Shown: piece by piece, positions 2,005 through 20,923 of the stretch
How the letters are laid out: each line of letters starts with the position of its first letter
Numbering within the stretch: position 1 is the first letter of the stretch
Assembly: GCA_025351245.1 (NCBI GenBank)
Contig: JANXWH010000055.1
Coordinates: 1-39,895, forward strand
Origin: Chloroflexota bacterium
GTDB lineage: Bacteria; Chloroflexota; Limnocylindria; Limnocylindrales; CSP1-4
Reading direction: 5' to 3'
DNA: 39,895 nucleotides
Notes under the pieces: generated by a model
Databases searched by the model: none
What the model was told of the DNA's origin: nothing
Seen by the model: the letters and a program-made list of their open reading frames with translations, nothing else
Position numbers and translations under genes: made by a program

Positions 2005-2682
2005 TCATGCGCCCGCGGCGCCCGTGCTCCCCGGCGCGTGGAGCGGCGCGCCCGCGGCGCAGCCCGGGCAGGTCTCCGGCCCTGGGTCGAAGGTCGGGAT
2101 CTCGAGCTGCCAGAGGCCCTGGACCGGGTAGCGGCGCTCCGTCGTCGGGGAGACCAGGACCGCTGTCCCACCCGAGCGGTCGGCCAGCACGAAGCAGGCC
2201 ACGATCTCCCCGCCGGCCGCCTCCACGGGCGGCAGCATCGCGAGCAGCGAGCCGCCAGTGGTCAGGATGTCGTCCACCAGCAGGACCCGCTCGCCGGGCT
2301 CGATCCGGAACCCGCGCCGGAACTCACGGCGGGTCGCCCCATCGGGGCCCCGGACCTCCTCGGCGAAGATACCGCGAACCCCGAGCTGGCGCGCCGTCTC
2401 GAACGCCAGCACGATCCCGCCGGTCGTTGGACCGGCGACGACGTCCACCATCGGCCGGCCCTCCGTCCCGCGGGCCGCGGCGGCCCAGAACGAGCAGAGC
2501 TCGCTGGTCACGGCCGGGTCCTGGAGGAGCAGGAACTTTTCCAGGTAGCGCTCGCTGTGGCGGCCGGACTTGAGGAGGAAGTGGCCTTCCTTCAGGGCGC
2601 CGGCGCGCTGGAAGAGGGACTCCGTGCGGGCGCCCATCGCGGCGCGCGCTGCTGCGTCAAGGGCGGGGCGGATCGTGGTCAT
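2005..2682 (-). CDS. pyrE: Orotate phosphoribosyltransferase
   Basis: 225 residues. Transfers the phosphoribosyl group of PRPP to orotate, giving orotidine 5'-phosphate, the fifth step of UMP synthesis. The PRPP-binding motif VLLVDDILTTGGS is intact, and the N-terminal half has the typical GHFLLKSGRHSERYLEKF substrate segment. The C-terminus carries about 20 extra residues with a CPGC pair and a low-complexity Pro/Gly/Ala tail; a CxxC here is unusual for PyrE. The ATG has no Shine-Dalgarno but sits six bases after TAGAAT, so the mRNA may be leaderless. It follows pyrK-pyrD-DUF1294 on the same strand. Confidence 0.93.
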   Translation of the reverse strand: MTTIRPALDAAARAAMGARTESLFQRAGALKEGHFLLKSGRHSERYLEKFLLLQDPAVTSELCSFWAAAARGTEGRPMVDVVAGPTTGGIVLAFETARQLGVRGIFAEEVRGPDGATRREFRRGFRIEPGERVLLVDDILTTGGSLLAMLPPVEAAGGEIVACFVLADRSGGTAVLVSPTTERRYPVQGLWQLEIPTFDPGPETCPGCAAGAPLHAPGSTGAAGA

Positions 2683-3076: not shown

Positions 3077-4246
3077 CTACGGCCGGTACTCGACGCCCTT
3101 CGCGGAGGCTGCGTTCGGCCGCGTTGGCAGCGCCGTCCCGATCAGCGGCCCGTACGAGGCGAGGCCCCGGCGGCCGCATTCCGCCGCCAGCTGATCCACC
3201 AATCGCACGGGCAGCGTCGGGTCCGCGAAAATCGCCGTCCCCACCTGGACCGCGACCGCGCCGGCCGCCAGGTAGTCCAGGACGTCGTCGAGCCCCGTCA
3301 CCCCGCCGATCGCGATGACGGGGATGCCCACGACCTGCGCCACCTCGTAGACGATCCGAAGCGCCACCGGCTTGATCGCCGGGCCGGACAGCCCGCCGTA
3401 CGTGTTGCCGAGGAACGGGCCCGTCCGGTCCGCGCGGAGCGCCATCCCGGAGAGCGTGTTGACCGCCGAGAGCGCATCGGCCCCGGCGGCGGCGATTGCC
3501 GCCGCGATCGGCCGGATGTCGGCGACGTTGGGCGAGAGCTTGACGATGAGCGGCAGCTCCGTGGCGCGCCGGACCGCGCGCGTCACGGCCGCCGCGGCTT
3601 CCTGGTCGATCGCGAACTGGAGCCCGCCCTTCCCGACGTTCGGGCAGCTGATGTTCAGCTCCACGCCGGCAATCCCCGGCACGAGGTCGAGCTTCCGGAC
3701 CACGCCCACGTAATCCTCGATCGACTCTCCGGCGACGTTCACGATCACGGGAACCTTCCAGCCTGCCCACTGCGATGCGTACCGCTCCAGCACCGCGTCG
3801 ACGCCGGGGTTCTGCAGGCCGATTGAGTTGAGCATCCCGCCCGGCGTCTCCGTGACGCGCGGCGGGCGATTTCCCTGGCGTGGCCGCAGCGTGGTTCCCT
3901 TGCAGCAGATCGCCCCGATCCGCTGGATGTCGACCACGTCGGCGTATTCCACCCCGTAGCCGAACGTCCCCGACGCGACGAGGATCGGGTTGCGCAGGAC
4001 CAGGCCGCGCCCGAGGTCCACCGAGAGATCCACGGTGGATCGGGCGGGTCCCGCGACCGGCGGGCCGACCGGTCGGGCGGCGGGCGACGCCGGACCCGGC
4101 GGGGGCGCCGGCCTCGGCTCCACGATCGCGCTCCGGATCGTGCGGACGGTGGGCGTCCGGCGTGTCTTCGGCGCGGGACCGCTCGTCGCGCCCCGCGACG
4201 GCGGCACGGCCTTGCCGTAGGTCACGACCCGCTTCTTCGCCCTCAT
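3077..4246 (-). CDS. pyrD: Dihydroorotate dehydrogenase, class 1B catalytic subunit
   Basis: 389 residues. Oxidises dihydroorotate to orotate with FMN. Class 1B is shown by the catalytic cysteine in NISCPNVGKGG and by the adjacent PyrK partner. Further motifs are LRNPILVASGTFGYG, the NTLSG segment and VGIPVIAIGGVTG (phosphate and FMN binding). The ATG overlaps the pyrK stop as ATGA, fixing the start. Residues 1-70 form an extension rich in Pro, Ala, Arg and Lys that is absent from ordinary PyrD (about 305 residues); the recognisable barrel begins near residue 71. Downstream comes DUF1294, then pyrE. Confidence 0.93.
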   Translation of the reverse strand: MRAKKRVVTYGKAVPPSRGATSGPAPKTRRTPTVRTIRSAIVEPRPAPPPGPASPAARPVGPPVAGPARSTVDLSVDLGRGLVLRNPILVASGTFGYGVEYADVVDIQRIGAICCKGTTLRPRQGNRPPRVTETPGGMLNSIGLQNPGVDAVLERYASQWAGWKVPVIVNVAGESIEDYVGVVRKLDLVPGIAGVELNISCPNVGKGGLQFAIDQEAAAAVTRAVRRATELPLIVKLSPNVADIRPIAAAIAAAGADALSAVNTLSGMALRADRTGPFLGNTYGGLSGPAIKPVALRIVYEVAQVVGIPVIAIGGVTGLDDVLDYLAAGAVAVQVGTAIFADPTLPVRLVDQLAAECGRRGLASYGPLIGTALPTRPNAASAKGVEYRP

Positions 4247-5121
4247 CGCTTGTGCGTCCCCGCCCCGGCCGTCGCCTCCCAGTCGATCTCGTCGAAGGCG
4301 AAGACCGGGCCCTCGCGGCAGACGCGCTGCGGTCCGTTGACGCCCCAGATCACGCAACCCAGGCAGGCGCCCACCGCGCAGCCCATGTTCTGCTCCATCG
4401 CGACCTGCAGAAAGGCCTTCTTCCGGGCCGCCGGCGACCCGAGCGGGACCGGCCTGCCGCCGCCTCGCTTGCGCCCGAGCGTCGCGACGCCAAGGCGGCC
4501 CTTCCGCCCGGCGACCAGGCCTGCCAGGGTCCGGAGCATCGGCAGCGGGCCGCAGGCAAAGGCCTGGTCCGCCCACGCCTCGTAGTCGAGGACGAGATCG
4601 GTGACGAACCCGCGGTGGCCCACCGACCCGTCGTCCGTCGCGACCAGGTATTCCACCTCGTCCGGAAGGAGCGACGAGGGATAGACCTCGGACGCGTCGC
4701 GGCAGCCGTAGAGGAGGACCACCTGCCGACCGTCGCGGAGCGCCTCGTCGACGAGCAACCGGAGGTCGGCGATCCCCAGCCCGCCGGCCACCAGCAGGAG
4801 GTGCCGGCTCCGCGAATCCACCTGGAACCCCTGACCCAGCGGGCCCAGCATGTCGATCCTTTCGCCCGGCCGCAGGCGTGTCAGCCAGGCGGTCCCGCGG
4901 CCGACTTCCCGGAAGTGCAGCGAGATCGCGCCGGTCGCGGGGTCTGCGGTGTTGATCGTGAACGGCCGGCGCAGGACGAGCCCTGAGCAGTCACCGGTCC
5001 GGACATGCACGAACTGCCCGGCCCGGGCGCTCACCGCCAGCGCCGGGGCGTGGTACTGCTGGAGCCACTGGCCCGGCAGGACCTGCCGGCTTTCCTGGAG
5101 TTCGGCGTCGACGAGCTGCAT
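4243..5121 (-). CDS. pyrK: Dihydroorotate dehydrogenase electron-transfer subunit
   Basis: 292-residue FAD/2Fe-2S subunit that passes electrons from PyrD to NAD+. The FAD-binding part has LVLRRPFTIN, the NAD-binding part LLLVAGGLGIADLRLL and AFACGPLPML, and the C-terminus the 2Fe-2S ligands in NMGCAVGACLGC followed by RVC. About 20 residues between the pyridine-nucleotide domain and the cluster (RKGRLGVATLGRKRGGG region) are Arg/Gly-rich and longer than usual. There is no clear Shine-Dalgarno at the ATG. It is translationally coupled to pyrD by ATGA and forms the start of the second pyr group. Confidence 0.92.
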   Translation of the reverse strand: MQLVDAELQESRQVLPGQWLQQYHAPALAVSARAGQFVHVRTGDCSGLVLRRPFTINTADPATGAISLHFREVGRGTAWLTRLRPGERIDMLGPLGQGFQVDSRSRHLLLVAGGLGIADLRLLVDEALRDGRQVVLLYGCRDASEVYPSSLLPDEVEYLVATDDGSVGHRGFVTDLVLDYEAWADQAFACGPLPMLRTLAGLVAGRKGRLGVATLGRKRGGGRPVPLGSPAARKKAFLQVAMEQNMGCAVGACLGCVIWGVNGPQRVCREGPVFAFDEIDWEATAGAGTHKR

Positions 5122-5189
5122 ACGGCGTGTTCGGTGATGACAGCGTGCGACAGGCCAGGCGAGGACGGCTTCCGTCGCGTTCCTGGCGG

Positions 5190-6113
5190 CTAGCGGTCCG
5201 CCCCCGGGCGGGCCTCGGCGGCGGCGTTCGAATTGTCGTCGTCGTCATCGTCGGATTCGTCGTCCTCGTCGGACTCGTCGTCCTCGTCCATCTCGGGCGC
5301 GACGACCGGGTAGGCCTCCGCGATTGCATCCGCGATGTCGCCAAAGACGTCCGTCGGGTCGTAGAACTCCACCAGCTCCTCGGGCGTCGTGAGCTTGCGC
5401 CACGCACCCTCGTCGCCCTCCGGCTCCACCTCGGCCTGGATCTGGCCGGAGCGGGCCAGCGAGAGCCGCTCGTCGTCGTCGTCGATGACGATCAGGTCGC
5501 CCACCTGCTCGGCAAGGCCGCTCGCCGCCTGCTGGAACTGCTCGATCAGGCGGGCCTCGGACAGCTGGCTCCGCTCCTGGAACGTGAGCGCGAGGTCGTA
5601 GAGCTTGTGCGCGGCCGACGTCTCGTCGTCGGCGTCGAGCGGCTGGCCGGCCGCCCAATCGTCGGCGGCGGCGGCGTACGCGACGTCGGCCTCCGGCGAG
5701 ACCGTCTCTTCGGGTCCGATCCCGGCGACGTTGAGGAGATCATCGGCGGCGGTCGGCTCCGGCTCCAGGCCAGCGGCTTCGCGCGCGGCCTCGGCGAATG
5801 CCGCGTAGATGTCGGCGGGGTTGTAGAGCTCCACCAGCTCCGCGGCGCTCTCGATCACCTCGGTCTCGCTGACCCACTCGTCGGTCACCTCGTCCTGAAA
5901 TCGTGTCCGGCTGCGGAACGAGAGATCGGGCGCGACGGAGAGGTAGTCGGGGTCGTCGTCGATCAGCGTCATGCCGCCGATCTCCTTGATCCGGGCGGCG
6001 TTCGCCTCCAGGAAACCCTGGAGCTGTTCGGCCGATCGGACCAGGAAATCGGAACGCTCGAGGGCGGCGTCGCGGGCGAGCTCGCCGAGCAGATCGGTGC
6101 GGTTCGCGTCCAT
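5190..6113 (-). CDS. Acidic protein with two diverged copies of a ~90-residue unit
   Basis: 307 residues, no known domain recognised. Residues about 19-113 and 180-268 align with each other: both begin with ERS, continue to a DD-rich turn (TLIDDDPDYLSVA versus IVIDDDDERLSLA) and end with matching segments (LVELYNPADIYAAFAEA versus LVEFYDPTDVFGDIADA). The linker is Ala/Asp/Glu-rich, and the tail from residue 275 is almost entirely Asp, Glu and Ser. The start is the ATG preceded by GAAGGAGG; the frame is open 23 codons upstream but that part is not needed. There is no signal peptide or TM segment, so it is probably cytosolic. It lies 52 bases after a small barrel protein and before pyrK. The function is unknown. 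Confidence 0.8.
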   Translation of the reverse strand: MDANRTDLLGELARDAALERSDFLVRSAEQLQGFLEANAARIKEIGGMTLIDDDPDYLSVAPDLSFRSRTRFQDEVTDEWVSETEVIESAAELVELYNPADIYAAFAEAAREAAGLEPEPTAADDLLNVAGIGPEETVSPEADVAYAAAADDWAAGQPLDADDETSAAHKLYDLALTFQERSQLSEARLIEQFQQAASGLAEQVGDLIVIDDDDERLSLARSGQIQAEVEPEGDEGAWRKLTTPEELVEFYDPTDVFGDIADAIAEAYPVVAPEMDEDDESDEDDESDDDDDDNSNAAAEARPGADR

Positions 6114-6165
6114 TGCTGGCGCCTCCTTCTCGATTCGATGTCCGGGTCGTCGTCGGCGCCCGGTG

Positions 6166-6492
6166 CTAGGGGTGGTATTCAAGGTCGGTGCCCATCCGCT
6201 CCCGGAGGAACATCGAGTGGTGCCGCTCGAAGATCCACTCGCCGGCCCGATGGCCGAGCGCGCGGGTGGCCTCGTCGGCCTCCAGCTTGTCGAGGGTGGC
6301 GTAGTCGGGCAGGTCCATGAGGATCACGTTGTCGAAGTCCCAGCCGTGGGCCACGTTGTACCAGCCCAGGAACCGGATGCCGAACTTCTCCTCGTACTCC
6401 CGAACCTGCCGCGGGAAGATCGTGCGCATGAAGAACTTGAAGAACGGGTCGCGCCCACGTCGGACCGAGAAGTAGGTCGCGAGCACCGGCAC
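6166..6492 (-). CDS. Small dimeric alpha/beta-barrel-like protein
   Basis: 108 residues. The pattern of a beta strand (MPVLATYFSVRRG), an aromatic-rich helix, then VILMDLPDYATLDKLEADEATRALGHRAGEWIFERH resembles the NIPSNAP/DUF-type ferredoxin-like fold whose members dimerise and often act in small-molecule oxidation or binding. No catalytic residue can be assigned. The start is GTG with AAGGAGGG ten bases upstream. It is followed closely by the duplicated acidic protein on the same strand. Confidence 0.7.
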   Translation of the reverse strand: MPVLATYFSVRRGRDPFFKFFMRTIFPRQVREYEEKFGIRFLGWYNVAHGWDFDNVILMDLPDYATLDKLEADEATRALGHRAGEWIFERHHSMFLRERMGTDLEYHP

Positions 6493-6575: not shown

Positions 6576-7091
6576 CTATTCTCGCACGCCCTCCGACCCG
6601 GGCTCGATCGTCTGCGGCGCGGGGGGCTCCGTCGCGGCAGTCGCACCTCCGCGACCGACTTCATCGGCGGCCGGCACGCCGAGCAGCACGTCCTCCAGCT
6701 CGCCCACCGTCGGCGTGGCGCTCGCAAGCGGCCGGCGACGACCCGCGTCGCGGCGATCGGCCGCCACGAGCCGCAGCAGGAAGATCAGCGTCTGGCCCAC
6801 GAAGAGGAGCAGGCCCAGCGCCACGAAGAGGAGCGCCGCGAGGACCTCGAACGGCCAGTTCAGCGTGACGCCGATCGGGATGAGGACCAGAAAGAAGGCG
6901 AGGACAACAGCCTGGAACCAGAAGCAGCCAAGGCCCGGGCCGCGCGCGGCATCGAGCTCCTCCCCCTTGTAGGCGGGGCGACGGGCCGCGACGTCGGCGG
7001 AGCTCCGGCGATCGCCGGAGGGTGCCGCGGCTCCAGCGGGGTGGGATGGCTCGCGGTCAAGGGCAGTCGTGGGCGTCGCGTCGTCGGTCAC
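6576..7091 (-). CDS. Two-TM membrane protein of unknown function
   Basis: About 171 residues from a GTG start. The N-terminal 50 residues are disordered (Asp, Thr, Pro, Ala, Arg). Two hydrophobic helices follow (near residues 55-77 and 80-108), starting with GCFWFQAVVLAFF. The C-terminal tail is polar and acidic. The frame continues upstream for hundreds of codons only as the antisense shadow of the decarboxylase, so the start is uncertain. It is divergent from the decarboxylase across a region with tandem repeats. Confidence 0.65.
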   Translation of the reverse strand: MTDDATPTTALDREPSHPAGAAAPSGDRRSSADVAARRPAYKGEELDAARGPGLGCFWFQAVVLAFFLVLIPIGVTLNWPFEVLAALLFVALGLLLFVGQTLIFLLRLVAADRRDAGRRRPLASATPTVGELEDVLLGVPAADEVGRGGATAATEPPAPQTIEPGSEGVRE

Positions 7092-7130
7092 GGAGTCGGA
7101 TGTCCTCGGCGGCCCCGCGGGGCATTTCGA

Positions 7131-7166
7131 TTTCGTCGGCCTGACGAATTTCGTCGGCGTGACAAT
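7131..7166. repeat. Two tandem 18-bp repeats in a divergent promoter region
   Basis: TTTCGTCGGCCTGACGAA (7131-7148) is followed without gap by TTTCGTCGGCGTGACAAT (7149-7166), with 15 of 18 matches. The junction forms a 13-bp palindrome, GACGAA-T-TTCGTC (7143-7155). It sits between the divergent membrane-protein and decarboxylase genes and is a fair candidate for a regulator binding site; no regulator is adjacent. Confidence 0.5.
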
Positions 7167-7262
7167 ACGCCCGAACGATCCCGAGCGTCCGAGGACCCGG
7201 CAAGTGGCCCCCCGCACCGCGGTCAGACGGCACACGTGCGGCGTCCGGTACGATCTCCGGCG

Positions 7263-8918
7263 ATGCACGACGAGCCCGCCGACCCACTCGCCCGCTTCCG
7301 CTGGCACCCGGAGCCTGAGCTGCTGGGGATCGGCGACGAGGCGACCAGCCGGGCGGCACTCGAGCGCCTCGGCGCGGCAGCATGGCAGACGAGCCTGGAC
7401 TACCTCTACCGCGAGGGCGTCCGGCGCGGAACGGGCCCGGAAACGTACGCCGAGCTGCGCAAGCGCCACTTCGGCGCGTCGGGCGGGCCCGGCCCGGCCC
7501 CGGCCACGCCGACGCCGGCCGCGGAGATCCTCGCCGAGTTCACCGCCCGGCTGGCGCCGTACCAGCTCAACCCCTACCACCCCGGCGTCCTCTCGTACTT
7601 CACGCCGCCGCCACTCGCGCTGTCGATCGTCGGAGAGCTCCTCGCCCAGTGGATCAACCAGGGGATCGACGTCTACCAGGCGGGCCCGGTCGGGACGTTC
7701 GTGGAGGAGGAGGTCAACCGCTGGCTGTGCGACCTCGTGGGGTACGGCGCGGGGAGCTGGGGCGTGCTGACGTCCGGCGGCACGATGGCCAACCTGATGG
7801 CGCTCACGGTCGTCCGCGACGTGCACCTCGCGCGGCTGGCGGCCGCCGCCGCGGCCGGGCTGCCGGCGGCGGCAGCCCTGGATCCGGCGCGCCTCGCAGC
7901 GGGTGGCGTGGCCGCCTATCCGGCCGTGCCGCGCGGGGCCGCGCTCGACGGCGTCCGCGTCTACGCCAGCGACCAGGCGCACTTCTCGATCGCGAAGGCG
8001 CTCGACATCCTGGGCTTCCCGGAGGGGACGCTGCACGTCGTGCCATCCGACGAGCGATTCCGCCTCCGCGGCGTGGACGTGGCTCGGGCGCTCGCCGAAG
8101 ACGCCGCGGCCGGCCTGCGGCCGCTCGCCATCTCGGCTGTCGCCGGGAGCACGAACACGGGTGCGGTGGACGCGACCGGTGAGCTGGCCGACGTGGCGGC
8201 GGCCCACGGGCTCTGGCTCCACGTGGACGCGGCGTACGGCGGAGCCGCGCTCCTTTCTGCGCGGGACGCGGGCCGCGTGCCAGACCTTGCGCGGGCAAAC
8301 TCCATCACGATCGACCCGCACAAGTGGTTCTTCCAGGCCTACGACATCGGCGGGCTCCTGGTCCGGCGGCAGGAGGATCTGCGGCAGACGTTCCACCGTG
8401 AGCCGGAGTACTACCGCCACGGCAACCTGGACGAGGAGCCGATCCACTGGTACCAGTACAGCTTCGAGGGGACGCGGCGGTTTCGCGCCCTCAAGCTCTG
8501 GGCAAGTTGGAAGCACCTCGGGACGGCTGGCCTGGGACGGCTTGTAGAGATGAACGACGATCTCGCCGCGCACCTCGCGGCCCGGATCGCGGAGAGCGAC
8601 GACCTGGAGGCGATCCCGGACGGCGCCCCGGACCTCTCGGTCGTCTGCTTCCGGCACGTCCCGGGCGGGCGGGCCCGGGCAGCCGAGCTCGAGGCGTCCG
8701 ATCCCGCTTCGCTCGACCACTACACGGACCTGCTCTGCGCGGCGCTGAACCGGTCCGGCGAGGGCTGGCTCTCGACCACGATCCTCCGCGGCCGGACGTA
8801 CCTGCGGGCCGGGATCGTCAACTACCTGAGCTCGCCGGCGGCGGTGGACGCGGTCCTTGCCACGCTTCGCCGCCTGGCGCCCGCGGCGGCCGACGCGGCG
8901 GGGCTCTCCCTGACCTGA
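7263..8918 (+). CDS. PLP-dependent group II amino acid decarboxylase
   Basis: 551 residues, fold type I, glutamate/aromatic-amino-acid decarboxylase family (Pfam pyridoxal_deC type). Visible motifs: LTSGGTMANLMAL (cofactor phosphate), HVDAAYGGAALLS (the Asp pairing with the pyridine N), and the Schiff-base lysine K354 in ITIDPHKWFFQ. The N-terminal NPYHPGVLSYFTPPPLALSIVGELLAQWINQ is the substrate and dimer part. Removes CO2 from an amino acid to give an amine; which amino acid cannot be read. The ATG at 7263 has no Shine-Dalgarno, but TACGAT lies eight bases upstream, so a nearly leaderless mRNA is possible. It converges with a FAD amine-oxidase-like gene 17 bases away. Confidence 0.9.
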   Translation: MHDEPADPLARFRWHPEPELLGIGDEATSRAALERLGAAAWQTSLDYLYREGVRRGTGPETYAELRKRHFGASGGPGPAPATPTPAAEILAEFTARLAPYQLNPYHPGVLSYFTPPPLALSIVGELLAQWINQGIDVYQAGPVGTFVEEEVNRWLCDLVGYGAGSWGVLTSGGTMANLMALTVVRDVHLARLAAAAAAGLPAAAALDPARLAAGGVAAYPAVPRGAALDGVRVYASDQAHFSIAKALDILGFPEGTLHVVPSDERFRLRGVDVARALAEDAAAGLRPLAISAVAGSTNTGAVDATGELADVAAAHGLWLHVDAAYGGAALLSARDAGRVPDLARANSITIDPHKWFFQAYDIGGLLVRRQEDLRQTFHREPEYYRHGNLDEEPIHWYQYSFEGTRRFRALKLWASWKHLGTAGLGRLVEMNDDLAAHLAARIAESDDLEAIPDGAPDLSVVCFRHVPGGRARAAELEASDPASLDHYTDLLCAALNRSGEGWLSTTILRGRTYLRAGIVNYLSSPAAVDAVLATLRRLAPAAADAAGLSLT

Positions 8919-8935
8919 GCCCGGCGCGGCGTCCT

Positions 8936-10255
8936 TCAGGCCCGCGGCCGCTCCCGGCCGGCCCGCCAGTCCGCGAGGCGGTACCACTCCCCCACGGCCG
9001 GCAGGAACCAGGGTCGGCCCTCGTATGGCGCCGGGACCAGCGGGAAACGCAGCGACGCGAGCGCCGGGGCCGGCTCGCCGCCCAGGATCCAGCCCGCCGC
9101 GCGATGCCCCAGGTACGGCAGGATCGCGACGCCGCTCCCGCAGCAGCCGCTCGCATAGGTGATCCCGCCCAGCCGGCCGACGTGGGGCATCCGGTCGAAC
9201 GTGAAGCTCACCTTGCCGCCCCATGCGTATGCAATGCGAACGCCGGCGAGCTGCGGGTGAACCCGGAGCATGCCCCGGAGCAGGATTCGCGCCGTCTTCT
9301 CGACCGACGAGGGCCAGAACGAGGCGCGCCCGCCGAAGAGCATCCGCCGGTCCGGCGTGAGTCGCCAGTAGTAGAGGAAGTTCTTCGAGTCGAAGAACAT
9401 CCGGCCGTTGGGGCTGATCTCGCGGGCCAGGTCCTCGGAGAGCGGATCCGTGGCGACGATGTAGCTGCCGATCGGCATGACCCGCCGACGGAGCTCCGGC
9501 GCGGCGCCATCCGTGTACCCGTTCGTGGCGACGAAGACCTCGCGCGCGACGATCGGGCCCGCCGTCGTCTCCACCACCGCCCGTCCGTCCGCCTGCGGCC
9601 GCACCCGGAGCGCTCGGACACCCTCGTGGAGCGACGCGCCGGCACGCTCGGCCGCGGCCGCGAGCCCGGCGGCATACTTCGCGGGGTGGAGCCCTCCGGA
9701 ACGCTCCACGACCAGCGCCCCGTGATAAGCATCCGTGCCGATCTCCGTGCGCATCTCGGCGGCCGGGATGGCGCGCGCGCGCTCGCCAACGGTCGCGAGC
9801 GATGCCACGGCAGTCGAGAGGTGCTCCATGTGGGACGGCGCGTAGGCGAGCTCCAGGTGCCCGGAGCGCACGAAGTCGGCGTCGATCGCCTCGTCCGCGA
9901 TCGTGGCCGCGGTCCATTCGAAGGCGTCCACGGATTCCCGGTAGATCGCTTCGCCCAGGATCGCGCCGTGGCGCTCCATGAGCTCAGCCGGGCCCCATTT
10001 GAAGCCGGGGTGGCACATGCCTCCGTTGCGCGACGAGGCGCCCCAGCCGATCGCTTCGGCTTCCAGCAGCACCACCCGTGCCCCGAGCTGGGCCCCCCGC
10101 CGCGCGGCCGCGCTCCCGGCCAGGCCGCCGCCGATGACGACGAGGTCCGCGGCGTCGGGAAGCGGCCGCCCGCGCCGGTCCGGCTGGGGCGGAAGCTGGG
10201 CCTGCCAGAGCGCGCGGCGCTCGAATGAACGAAGCGGGTCGGCGGTCGGCGACAT
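8936..10255 (-). CDS. FAD-dependent amine/amino acid oxidoreductase (DAO family)
   Basis: 439 residues. The Rossmann FAD motif VVIGGGLAGSAAARRGAQLG starts near residue 39, followed by GWGASSRNGGMCHPGF, a hallmark of the PuuB / gamma-glutamylputrescine oxidase and glycine oxidase group. The C-terminus has FDRMPHVGRLGGITYASGCCGSG, the second FAD-contact segment. Oxidises an amine or N-alkyl amino acid to an imine with O2 or another acceptor; the exact substrate is open. It is convergent with the decarboxylase, which fits a decarboxylate-then-oxidise route for an amine. That pairing is inferred from position only. Confidence 0.88.
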   Translation of the reverse strand: MSPTADPLRSFERRALWQAQLPPQPDRRGRPLPDAADLVVIGGGLAGSAAARRGAQLGARVVLLEAEAIGWGASSRNGGMCHPGFKWGPAELMERHGAILGEAIYRESVDAFEWTAATIADEAIDADFVRSGHLELAYAPSHMEHLSTAVASLATVGERARAIPAAEMRTEIGTDAYHGALVVERSGGLHPAKYAAGLAAAAERAGASLHEGVRALRVRPQADGRAVVETTAGPIVAREVFVATNGYTDGAAPELRRRVMPIGSYIVATDPLSEDLAREISPNGRMFFDSKNFLYYWRLTPDRRMLFGGRASFWPSSVEKTARILLRGMLRVHPQLAGVRIAYAWGGKVSFTFDRMPHVGRLGGITYASGCCGSGVAILPYLGHRAAGWILGGEPAPALASLRFPLVPAPYEGRPWFLPAVGEWYRLADWRAGRERPRA

Positions 10256-10550: not shown

Positions 10551-11984
10551 CTACGCGTCTCCGGCTGCGTCCCGGTAGGCCAGGCGACCCTGCGCCACGG
10601 TCAAGAGGATGCGGCCCGGGAGCTCGCGGCCGAGGAGCGGCGTGTTCTTGCCGCGCGACGCAAGCGCATCGGCAGTGACGAGCCAGCGGTCCCCGGCGTC
10701 CACCACGACGAGGTCCGCGGGAGCGCCCTCCACGAGCCCGCGCGCGCCGCCGCGCCGGCCCGGCCGGGCGCCGAGCACGGCCGCCGGCCCGATCGTCAGG
10801 GCCGCAACGGCCCGGGCCAGCGGGAGCTTCCCGGCGGCGACCGCGGCGAGCAGCACGCCGAAGGCCGTCTCGGCGCCGCTGATCCCGTTCGCGGCAAGCC
10901 CGAACTCCGCCTCCTTGTCCACCGCTGTGTGCGGGGCATGGTCGGTCGCGACCGCATCCGCGGTCCCATCGGCCAGCGCCGCGAGGCACGCGGCCGCATC
11001 CGACGCGCCGCGGAGCGGCGGGTTTACCCGACAGGCGGTCCCGTACGGATGGGCGACCAGGGCGCCGTCGGCCCACGGATCGCGCGCTGTTCCCGCGCCG
11101 TCCAGCGCCTCCCAGGCCCAGCGCCGCGCGCCCGCGACCCACTCGTCGGTGAACCCCAGGTGGTGCGGCGTCACGTCGCAGGTCACCGGCAGCCCGGCCG
11201 CCTTTGCGCGCCGCACCGCGTCCAGCGCTCCGGCGGTGGAGAGATGCGTGAGATGGAGCCGGGCCCCCGGCGCGTCCGCACGCACCGAGTCGAGGATCGC
11301 GATCGCGCGCTCCACCGCCGAGATCTCGGCGGCCGCAGGCCACCCCTTGAGGCCCAGGATCGTCGCGACGAGACCCTCGTTCGCCTCGGCGCCCCCGGTG
11401 AGCGTCACGTCCTCGGCGTGCTCCACGATCGGGAGCCCCAGCATGCCGGCGTACAGGAGCGCATTGCGGAGAAGGATCGCGCTCTTCACCGGCGAACCGT
11501 CGTCGGAGAGGCCGACCGCCCCGGCGTCGGCCAGCTCCCCGAGCGCAGCGAGGCGCTCCCCTCCCCGGCCGACGGTGACCGCTCCGTGGAGGAGCAGCTC
11601 CACCGGCGAGCCGGATGCCGCGGCCGCCCCGGCAACCCGCGCGAAGACGCCCGGCTCGTCCGCGGCCGGCGTCGTGTTCGGCATCGCGCAGACGGTCGTA
11701 AAGCCACCGTGCGCGGCTGCGGCGAGCCCGCTCGCGACCGTCTCCGCGTCCTCGTTGCCCGGCTCGCGCAGGTGCACGTGGAGGTCGAGGAATCCCGGCA
11801 GCACGAGCACCCCGTCCGGCCCGATGCCGTCGGCCTTGGCGCCCCGAAGCCAGGTCACGGCCTCCAGGATGCCGTCGCGGACCACGATCTCGCCGGGTCC
11901 CTCGCGCTCCCCGACCGGGTCCACCAGCCAGGCCCGGCTGATCTCAAGGAGCGGGACCATCGTGCCGACGCGCAGATCAGGCAT
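10551..11984 (-). CDS. pyrC: Dihydroorotase
   Basis: 477 residues, class I (PyrC/AllB amidohydrolase type). Interconverts carbamoyl-aspartate and dihydroorotate. Metal and substrate motifs: FLDLHVHLREPG (first two His and the Arg), VCAMPNTTP, a buried HLTHLSTAG and CDVTPHHLGF, and the catalytic Asp in ATDHAPHT. About 40 residues longer than the common 430-residue class I enzyme, mainly in Ala/Gly-rich loops. Its ATG overlaps the end of pyrB by eight bases, so translation is probably coupled. Confidence 0.94.
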   Translation of the reverse strand: MPDLRVGTMVPLLEISRAWLVDPVGEREGPGEIVVRDGILEAVTWLRGAKADGIGPDGVLVLPGFLDLHVHLREPGNEDAETVASGLAAAAHGGFTTVCAMPNTTPAADEPGVFARVAGAAAASGSPVELLLHGAVTVGRGGERLAALGELADAGAVGLSDDGSPVKSAILLRNALLYAGMLGLPIVEHAEDVTLTGGAEANEGLVATILGLKGWPAAAEISAVERAIAILDSVRADAPGARLHLTHLSTAGALDAVRRAKAAGLPVTCDVTPHHLGFTDEWVAGARRWAWEALDGAGTARDPWADGALVAHPYGTACRVNPPLRGASDAAACLAALADGTADAVATDHAPHTAVDKEAEFGLAANGISGAETAFGVLLAAVAAGKLPLARAVAALTIGPAAVLGARPGRRGGARGLVEGAPADLVVVDAGDRWLVTADALASRGKNTPLLGRELPGRILLTVAQGRLAYRDAAGDA

Positions 11985-12993
11985 TCGTCACGGCCTCCGG
12001 GTGCCCGCCGGCGAGGAGATAGAGGAGTGCCATCCGGACCGCCACGCCGTTCGTCACCTGCTCGGTGATCACGCTCCGGTCGAGGATCGCCACGTCCGGC
12101 GCGATCTCCACGCCCTCGTTCATCGGCCCCGGGTGCATGACAAGCGCAGCCGGCTTCGCGACCGCGAGCCGCTCGCGCGTCAGCCCGAACCGCGCCGCGT
12201 ACTCGCGCAGCGACGGGAGGAGCCCGGCGTCCATCCGCTCGCGCTGGAGACGCAGCGCCATCACGACGTCGGCGTCGCGGAGCGCGGCGTCCACGTCCGA
12301 GGTGACGGTGAAGCCGACGTGTCCCGGTGCGCCGCCGCCAGCCCAGCGGCCGGCCCAGGCGTCGAAGCCGCGCAGGATCGTCGTGGGCCCGCAGATCCAG
12401 AGGTCCGCACCGGCCGCGGTGAGCGACCACACGTTGGAACGTGCGACCCGCGAGTGGAGGACGTCGCCGAGGATCACGACCTTCTTCCCGCGGACGTCGC
12501 CAAGGTGCGCCCGCATCGTGTAGAGGTCCAGGAGGGCCTGGCTCGGGTGGGCATGCCAGCCGTCTCCGCCGTTGAGGATCGAGCCGGAGAAGACCTCGGC
12601 CGCAAGGTACGGCGCGCCCGACGTCCCGTGGCGCATCACGATCATGTCAGCGCCCAGCGCCTCGACGGTCCGGATCGTGTCCACCAGCGACTCGCCCTTC
12701 GTCACCGACGACGACGACGCAGCGATATTCACGACATCGGCGGAAAGGTTCTTGGCGGCGACCTCGAAGCTCACCCGCGTTCGCGTCGACGCCTCGTAGA
12801 AGAGGATCGTCACGTTCGTGCCCCGGAGCGCGGGGACTTTCGAGATGGGCCTAGCCAGGACCTCCTTCATCGCGTCCGTCGTCTGCATCACCAGCTGGAT
12901 CTCGGCGAGGGAGAGGGCGTCCACGTCCAGGAGGTGCTTCTGTCGCCAGGCGACGTCGGGCGGGGTTGGGGTGCGGGAGGCGTTCATGGCCAT
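11977..12993 (-). CDS. pyrB: Aspartate carbamoyltransferase catalytic chain
   Basis: 338 residues. Joins carbamoyl phosphate and aspartate. Motifs: FYEASTRTRVSFE (carbamoyl-phosphate loop), HPSQALLDLYTM, GDVLHSRVARSN, LRLQRERM and MHPGPMNEGVEI. The start is taken at the first ATG of MAMNAS, seven bases after the pyrR stop; a second ATG lies two codons later. The larger open frame upstream is only the shadow of pyrR. No pyrI is seen. It is the second gene of the pyrR-B-C operon. Confidence 0.95.
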   Translation of the reverse strand: MAMNASRTPTPPDVAWRQKHLLDVDALSLAEIQLVMQTTDAMKEVLARPISKVPALRGTNVTILFYEASTRTRVSFEVAAKNLSADVVNIAASSSSVTKGESLVDTIRTVEALGADMIVMRHGTSGAPYLAAEVFSGSILNGGDGWHAHPSQALLDLYTMRAHLGDVRGKKVVILGDVLHSRVARSNVWSLTAAGADLWICGPTTILRGFDAWAGRWAGGGAPGHVGFTVTSDVDAALRDADVVMALRLQRERMDAGLLPSLREYAARFGLTRERLAVAKPAALVMHPGPMNEGVEIAPDVAILDRSVITEQVTNGVAVRMALLYLLAGGHPEAVTNA

Positions 12994-13000
12994 GCCGCCC

Positions 13001-13660
<660 letters not shown>

Positions 13661-20626: not shown

Positions 20627-20923
20627 CTAGTCCGCCCGAACGTCGAGCAACACCGGCCCCACGACCCGATCCTGACTCTCCGCGTGGGGAGCGATGAACG
20701 TGTTGAAGACCCCAGGACCCAGGATCGCGGCCCCTGCTCCGGCCGCCTCGACCGAGCTCCACGAGATGACGACCACCATCTCGTTCGCCCCCACCTGGAC
20801 CAGGCTGGCTCGTTCGAACCCCGGGAGTCCCCGGAGCACGGGCAGGACCTCGCGCTCGACCGCGGAGGCCACTTCCTCGACAGGAACGCGGAGCTTGATC
20901 CGATTGACGACGATCGCCGACAT
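20627..20923 (-). CDS. Small ABM-like (dimeric alpha/beta barrel) protein
   Basis: 98 residues. The strand IVVNRIKLRVPVE, the helix to REVLPVLRGLPGFERASLVQ and the strand MVVVISWSSVEAA follow the antibiotic-biosynthesis-monooxygenase layout. Members oxidise small aromatics or haem without cofactors, or just bind ligands. A run of seven G seven bases before the ATG serves as ribosome site. It stands alone. Confidence 0.65.
   Translation of the reverse strand: MSAIVVNRIKLRVPVEEVASAVEREVLPVLRGLPGFERASLVQVGANEMVVVISWSSVEAAGAGAAILGPGVFNTFIAPHAESQDRVVGPVLLDVRAD

Follow-up and report, generated by a model that had tools for sequence, protein, structure and literature searches.

The gene pair described here combines a duplicated domain, a neighbouring small protein of 108 aa and a place in the pyr operon, and these three elements (the domain, its pairing with the small protein, and the operon position) are the conserved core of the system. 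The domain occurs twice in an acidic protein encoded in the window, by which we mean the whole stretch of DNA analysed (39,895 nucleotides, one whole contig of a 2.9-Mb genome from a soil Chloroflexota bacterium). Tentatively, we infer that this two-unit protein is a non-catalytic binding or scaffold partner of the 108-aa protein, and that it serves pyrimidine synthesis. The gene and its parts are located as follows.

5190-6113, minus strand: gene for the two-unit acidic protein (translation of 307 aa; ATG at 6113, stop codon 5190-5192)
5766-6113, minus strand: unit A, residues 1-116 (unit profile; predicted αα-ββββ-αα)
5952-5960, minus strand: DDD turn in unit A, residues 52-54 (from the sequence; strands 48-53 and 56-60 form the hairpin)
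5808-5822, minus strand: NPADI of unit A, residues 98-102 (from the sequence; start of helix 99-113)
5628-5765, minus strand: linker, residues 117-162 (mostly predicted disordered; pLDDT low at 121-154)
5649-5678, minus strand: linker peptide YAAAADDWAA, residues 146-155, with W153 invariant (conserved in the alignment; candidate docking motif)
5295-5627, minus strand: unit B, residues 163-273 (profile; predicted elements; unit model with pLDDT 91.7 and pTM 0.80)
5472-5483, minus strand: DDDD turn in unit B, residues 211-214 (from the sequence; strands 207-211 and 215-219 form the hairpin)
5346-5360, minus strand: DPTDV of unit B, residues 252-256 (from the sequence; start of helix 253-267)
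5193-5294, minus strand: acidic tail, residues 274-307 (56% D/E; pLDDT below 50, disordered; dN/dS about 0.9-1.3)

A plus-strand open reading frame of 397 aa (5127-6320) lies over this gene. It was rejected as a shadow, since the minus-strand frame has a coding-type distribution of GC over the codon positions (0.76/0.44/0.89), many homologues, and low dN/dS in its domains (about 0.05-0.13 within the genus).

The initial annotation had described the protein as a diverged internal duplication, with copies at residues 19-113 and 180-268, and local alignment, profile-profile comparison and BLASTP all bear this out. Smith-Waterman alignment paired residues ~18-114 with residues ~180-268, in agreement with the proposed boundaries, at a score of 96 against 31.0±5.5 for shuffled sequences (maximum 57; 0 of 2000 shuffles reached 96). 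The unit-A and unit-B profiles, made from about 45 homologues, matched each other in hhalign with a probability of 98.1 and an E-value of 8.8e-14, and BLASTP aligned unit A with unit B at 33% identity (E 1e-8). These scores indicate that units A and B are true homologues. The motifs that had been noticed in both copies take equivalent places in the predicted structure: the DDD turns (D52-D54 in unit A, D211-D214 in unit B) both fall in the β1-β2 hairpin, and the matched (N/D)P(A/T)D(I/V) segments (N98-P-A-D-I102 and D252-P-T-D-V256) are predicted to cap the last helix of each unit. The tail that follows, reported as almost pure Asp/Glu/Ser, is nearly so over residues 274-293.

The AlphaFold2 model of the whole protein, built from 23 sequences, has a mean pLDDT of 71 and a pTM of 0.42, low values that accompany pLDDT below 50 in the linker and the tail. 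For unit A it predicts helices 2-37 and 39-45, strands 48-53, 56-60, 66-73 and 80-87, and helices 90-96 and 99-113; for unit B, helices 164-181 and 187-204, strands 207-211, 215-219, 225-229 and 239-241, and helices 244-250 and 253-267. The two units have the same order of elements, αα-ββββ-αα, corresponding one to one; from the first strand on, they also follow the register of the sequence alignment. The likeness of fold is read here from the order of the predicted elements, which does not refute the duplication. The separate model of unit B, for which 44 A and B sequences were used, has the scores given above. Each unit would thus consist of a long N-terminal helical part, a four-stranded meander and two C-terminal helices.

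The earlier statement that no family is recognised also stands, as sequence searches of Pfam, NCBIfam and the PDB gave no family match for the two-unit protein. No relative was found in plasmids and phages by tblastn. Foldseek searches with the whole protein and with the unit model returned no significant match; the AlphaFold DB was outside the search, and a new fold therefore cannot be claimed. The top match of the unit model was YkuJ of Bacillus subtilis (PDB 2ffg), with an E-value of 0.25, a TM-score of 0.30 by query and an rmsd of 7.1, and thus not the same fold by usual standards.

Homologues of the two-unit protein were identified in about 30 of the 37 genomes of the window's own family, and its named relatives, with identities of 53-95%, are MAGs of Chloroflexota that include one labelled Candidatus Limnocylindrales. 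When the whole class Limnocylindria, whose families are labelled here f1 to f5, was searched with the unit profile, 136 of the 177 genomes matched. Nearly all matching genomes of f1 and f4 have two units per protein, and those of f2, a family with small genomes (about 1.1 Mb), have one. Using the description in PMC13212565, we infer that f1 corresponds to CSP1-4 and f2 to Limnocylindraceae. The profile gave no convincing match in f3 and f5 or in the sampled rest of the phylum Chloroflexota. The weak matches outside the clade that were inspected (G148, G491), which sit in a beta-lactamase-like protein and a large GAF-type protein, were discarded as chance. Within the genomes sampled, the unit family is confined to part of the class Limnocylindria.

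In a tree of the units, for which the program flags long branches meeting, a fully supported branch divides A from B, both sides include sequences of f1 and f4, and the f2 single units fall with unit A. The presence of both families on both sides places the duplication before their split. On this evidence the duplication is ancient, A and B having separated before the families did. The position of the f2 units is independently backed by the f2 proteins themselves, which beyond the unit read PTGAI..GLGVAGD, much as the linker between A and B begins (PTAADDLLNVAGIG). The single-unit homologues envisaged by the initial annotation exist, in f2. This form is ruled out as the ancestral state by its grouping with A and the apparent retention of the linker start; the f2 proteins look like unit A with unit B secondarily lost, which agrees with the reduced genomes that PMC13212565 describes for Limnocylindraceae.

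Other arrangements of the unit were also observed. One f1 genome has, on another contig and outside the pyr operon, a solitary three-unit paralogue (L035 2340-3794), the units of which group with unit B in the tree. In several single-unit proteins (L038-L043) the N-terminus is extended by a stretch rich in Lys and Ala (KKPAKK...), whose charge is the reverse of that of the acidic tail in the two-unit proteins.

We compared the window gene with three close relatives in the genus and obtained dN/dS values of about 0.05-0.14 for units A and B, 0-0.09 for the linker, and about 0.9-1.3, that is near-neutral, for the tail; a fourth, more distant comparison gave higher values throughout. Within the genus, the domains and the linker are under purifying selection and the tail is not. 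The tail is also short or almost absent in several homologues. The linker is conserved though much of it is predicted to be disordered, and the Trp of its YAAAADDWAA peptide is invariant among the two-unit proteins. Every residue invariant among these proteins is hydrophobic, aromatic, acidic, Gly or Pro. His, Cys, Lys, Ser and Arg do not occur among them, and therefore no catalytic signature is seen; an enzyme working through its backbone or through variable residues may nevertheless have this appearance.

The acidic character emphasized at first holds for the window protein and for the two-unit branch, the f1 proteins having a pI of about 4.05 and a net charge of about -62, and fails for the family at large. 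The single-unit orthologues of f2 have a median pI of 9.25 and are without the acidic tail, the DDD turn, the YAAAADDWAA linker peptide and unit B. The turn, the peptide and unit B are thus not essential to the role that the proteins share, and the acidic features (DDD turn and tail) appear to be mostly specific to the two-unit branch.

The neighbours of the gene in the window are listed below, with names assigned by Pfam; genes of the relatives were named by reading translations and by tblastn with the window proteins. Both neighbours mentioned by the initial annotation, pyrK downstream and a small protein upstream, which it took for a barrel, were found.

6166-6492, minus strand: paired orphan small protein, 108 aa, GTG start (adjoins the unit gene; no Pfam match)
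6576-7100, minus strand: small membrane-type protein of the module, start not set (tblastn relatives; no Pfam match)
4243-5121, minus strand: pyrK, electron-transfer subunit of dihydroorotate dehydrogenase (PF10418, PF00175, PF00970)
3077-4576, minus strand: pyrD reading frame, true start inside the frame (PF01180, E 1.4e-75)
2005-2682, minus strand: pyrE-type phosphoribosyltransferase (PF00156)
10551-11984, minus strand: pyrC-type dihydroorotase (PF01979, PF12890)
11977-13257, minus strand: pyrB-type aspartate carbamoyltransferase reading frame (PF02729, PF00185)

The gene of the 108-aa protein adjoins the unit gene in every locus with enough flanking sequence, except that of the three-unit paralogue, and the two genes have the same distribution among the genomes searched for both. 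Most gaps between them are short; in f4 the genes overlap by 4 bp, and in several f2 loci by a single base. Gene starts were picked by alignment, so that some f2 gaps are overestimated. When the window is compared with f2, identity is 83-85% for the 108-aa protein, 33-36% for PyrK and about 52-62% for PyrE. Invariant residues of the 108-aa protein include Arg, Asp, His and Trp, and it has no match in Pfam. Of the pair, it is the likelier to be catalytic or to bind a ligand, and it may merit more attention than the two-unit protein itself. Relatives of the membrane-type protein (GPGLGCFW...) were detected by tblastn upstream of the 108-aa gene in many f1, f2 and f4 genomes, and none was detected at this place in a group of fen genomes.

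The gene order at one f1 locus (L068) is pyrR-pyrB-pyrC-[108-aa protein]-[unit protein]-pyrK-pyrD-pyrE. Other f1 genomes and f2 have the gene of the small membrane-type protein ahead of the 108-aa gene. The order in f4 is pyrB-pyrC-[membrane-type protein]-[108-aa protein]-[unit protein]-pyrE, with pyrK and pyrD missing there. In all three families the module is kept within the pyr operon, between pyrC and pyrK or pyrE, while the rest of the operon differs. In the window itself, pyrC is separated from the module by two further genes, and pyrD from pyrE by a DUF1294 gene.

Some further genes were noted in passing. The region 7041-10255 of the window, between pyrC and the other pyr genes, encodes a PLP-dependent decarboxylase on the plus strand and a DAO-type oxidoreductase on the minus strand. 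At 20627-20923 (minus strand) there is a 98-aa protein (MSAIVVNRIKLRVPVEEV...) that by eye is like small antibiotic-monooxygenase-like proteins and has no Pfam match at 1e-3. The main PyrD of f4 (L129 1333-2385; L138 1255-2310) lies away from the pyr operon and differs from the PyrK-PyrD type of f1 and f2; from its sequence it looks like the quinone-dependent class (class 2).

In the scaffold-partner reading that we tentatively prefer, two copies of the orphan domain would be joined by a flexible linker with the conserved YAAAADDW, and the disordered acidic tail would be dispensable. The two-unit protein would bind the conserved 108-aa protein encoded just upstream, with the linker peptide as a putative docking site, and the pair would form an accessory module of de novo pyrimidine synthesis that organises or regulates the enzymes of the operon. 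We counted in favour of this reading the fixed pairing of the two genes, their same distribution and the kept operon position, as well as the absence of catalytic-type invariant residues, the purifying selection on domains and linker, and the conservation of a linker that is predicted to be disordered. As expected of an accessory protein of pyrimidine enzymes, the protein is conservedly encoded with pyrimidine genes. Against the reading we counted that an operon position can be historical, that the f2 proteins do without unit B, the linker peptide and the DDD turn, and that an enzyme of the kind mentioned above may look alike.

A serious alternative, and in our judgement a quite possible one, is that the module shares nothing with the operon except its expression. 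The pair would then be unrelated to pyrimidines, acting for example in stress or at the envelope together with the membrane protein, and would ride on a housekeeping promoter. Unrelated genes are indeed present in the region, namely the DUF1294 gene after pyrD and the two that separate pyrC from the module, and in many genomes the module includes the small membrane-type protein. However, the position is kept in three families although the f4 operon is without pyrK and pyrD, and the f1 genomes checked that have no unit protein (G003, G006, G012) are also without the strong DHO_dh match, of the operon-type PyrD, seen in the others. The absence of the protein from these genomes may reflect a missing or lost operon. 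We consider it rather unlikely that the unit is a new fold and that, together with its extremely conserved 108-aa neighbour, it makes up a hitherto unrecognised module, obligate for de novo pyrimidine synthesis in this uncultured class, by which the enzymes of the operon would be controlled or coupled.

The immediate proximity of pyrK, with a gap of about 2 bp in many genomes, would also suit an accessory subunit of the type 1B dihydroorotate dehydrogenase (PyrK-PyrD), such as an assembly or electron-transfer adaptor. The module is, however, not found solely alongside pyrK and pyrD: in f4 it is followed by pyrE, and the main PyrD is the quinone-dependent-looking one elsewhere. This arrangement makes such a subunit unlikely, and strong PyrD matches occur without the module in f3 (G056) and f5 (G060), so that we regard this reading as improbable. 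More improbable still is a nucleic-acid mimic or an acidic chaperone-like protein acting by negative charge, for which the pI and net charge of the f1 proteins would speak, but the basic f2 orthologues show that a strong negative charge is not conserved, and the tail is variable and near-neutral. Finally, a diverged amphi-Trp domain (TIGR04354) is scarcely credible and was ruled out at the sequence level, since the weak hmmscan match to unit B (residues 181-235, about 55 residues, E 0.072) reached 13.4 bits against a curated cut-off of 31, was obtained for only 1 of 32 unit sequences and was equalled at two other places in the same genome, while profile-profile comparison with four true members gave probabilities below 0.4% (E 0.17-0.69).

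Pyrimidine synthesis is among the best-known metabolic pathways. In this light one would not expect its operon to have retained an unassigned gene pair throughout a lineage of soil and freshwater, and the matter is easy to test. Lineage-restricted duplicated proteins of unknown function are common, and the two-unit protein taken alone is therefore of limited interest. Its domain has no detectable solved relative, so that one structure would define a new family, and the f2 relatives, from which one unit and the acidic parts are naturally deleted, show what is dispensable.

In kind, the protein of the preferred scaffold-partner reading is already familiar, namely an unassigned accessory-type protein that goes back to a domain duplication and belongs to a metabolic operon, and it is specific to Limnocylindria. 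According to PMC7053772, the aspartate transcarbamoylase of Pseudomonas aeruginosa needs an inactive dihydroorotase-like chain, which offers an analogy as an inactive partner that a pyrimidine enzyme needs. The P. aeruginosa chain is a homologue of dihydroorotase, whereas for the two-unit protein no relation to an enzyme of pyrimidine synthesis was detected, and its part in a complex is putative.
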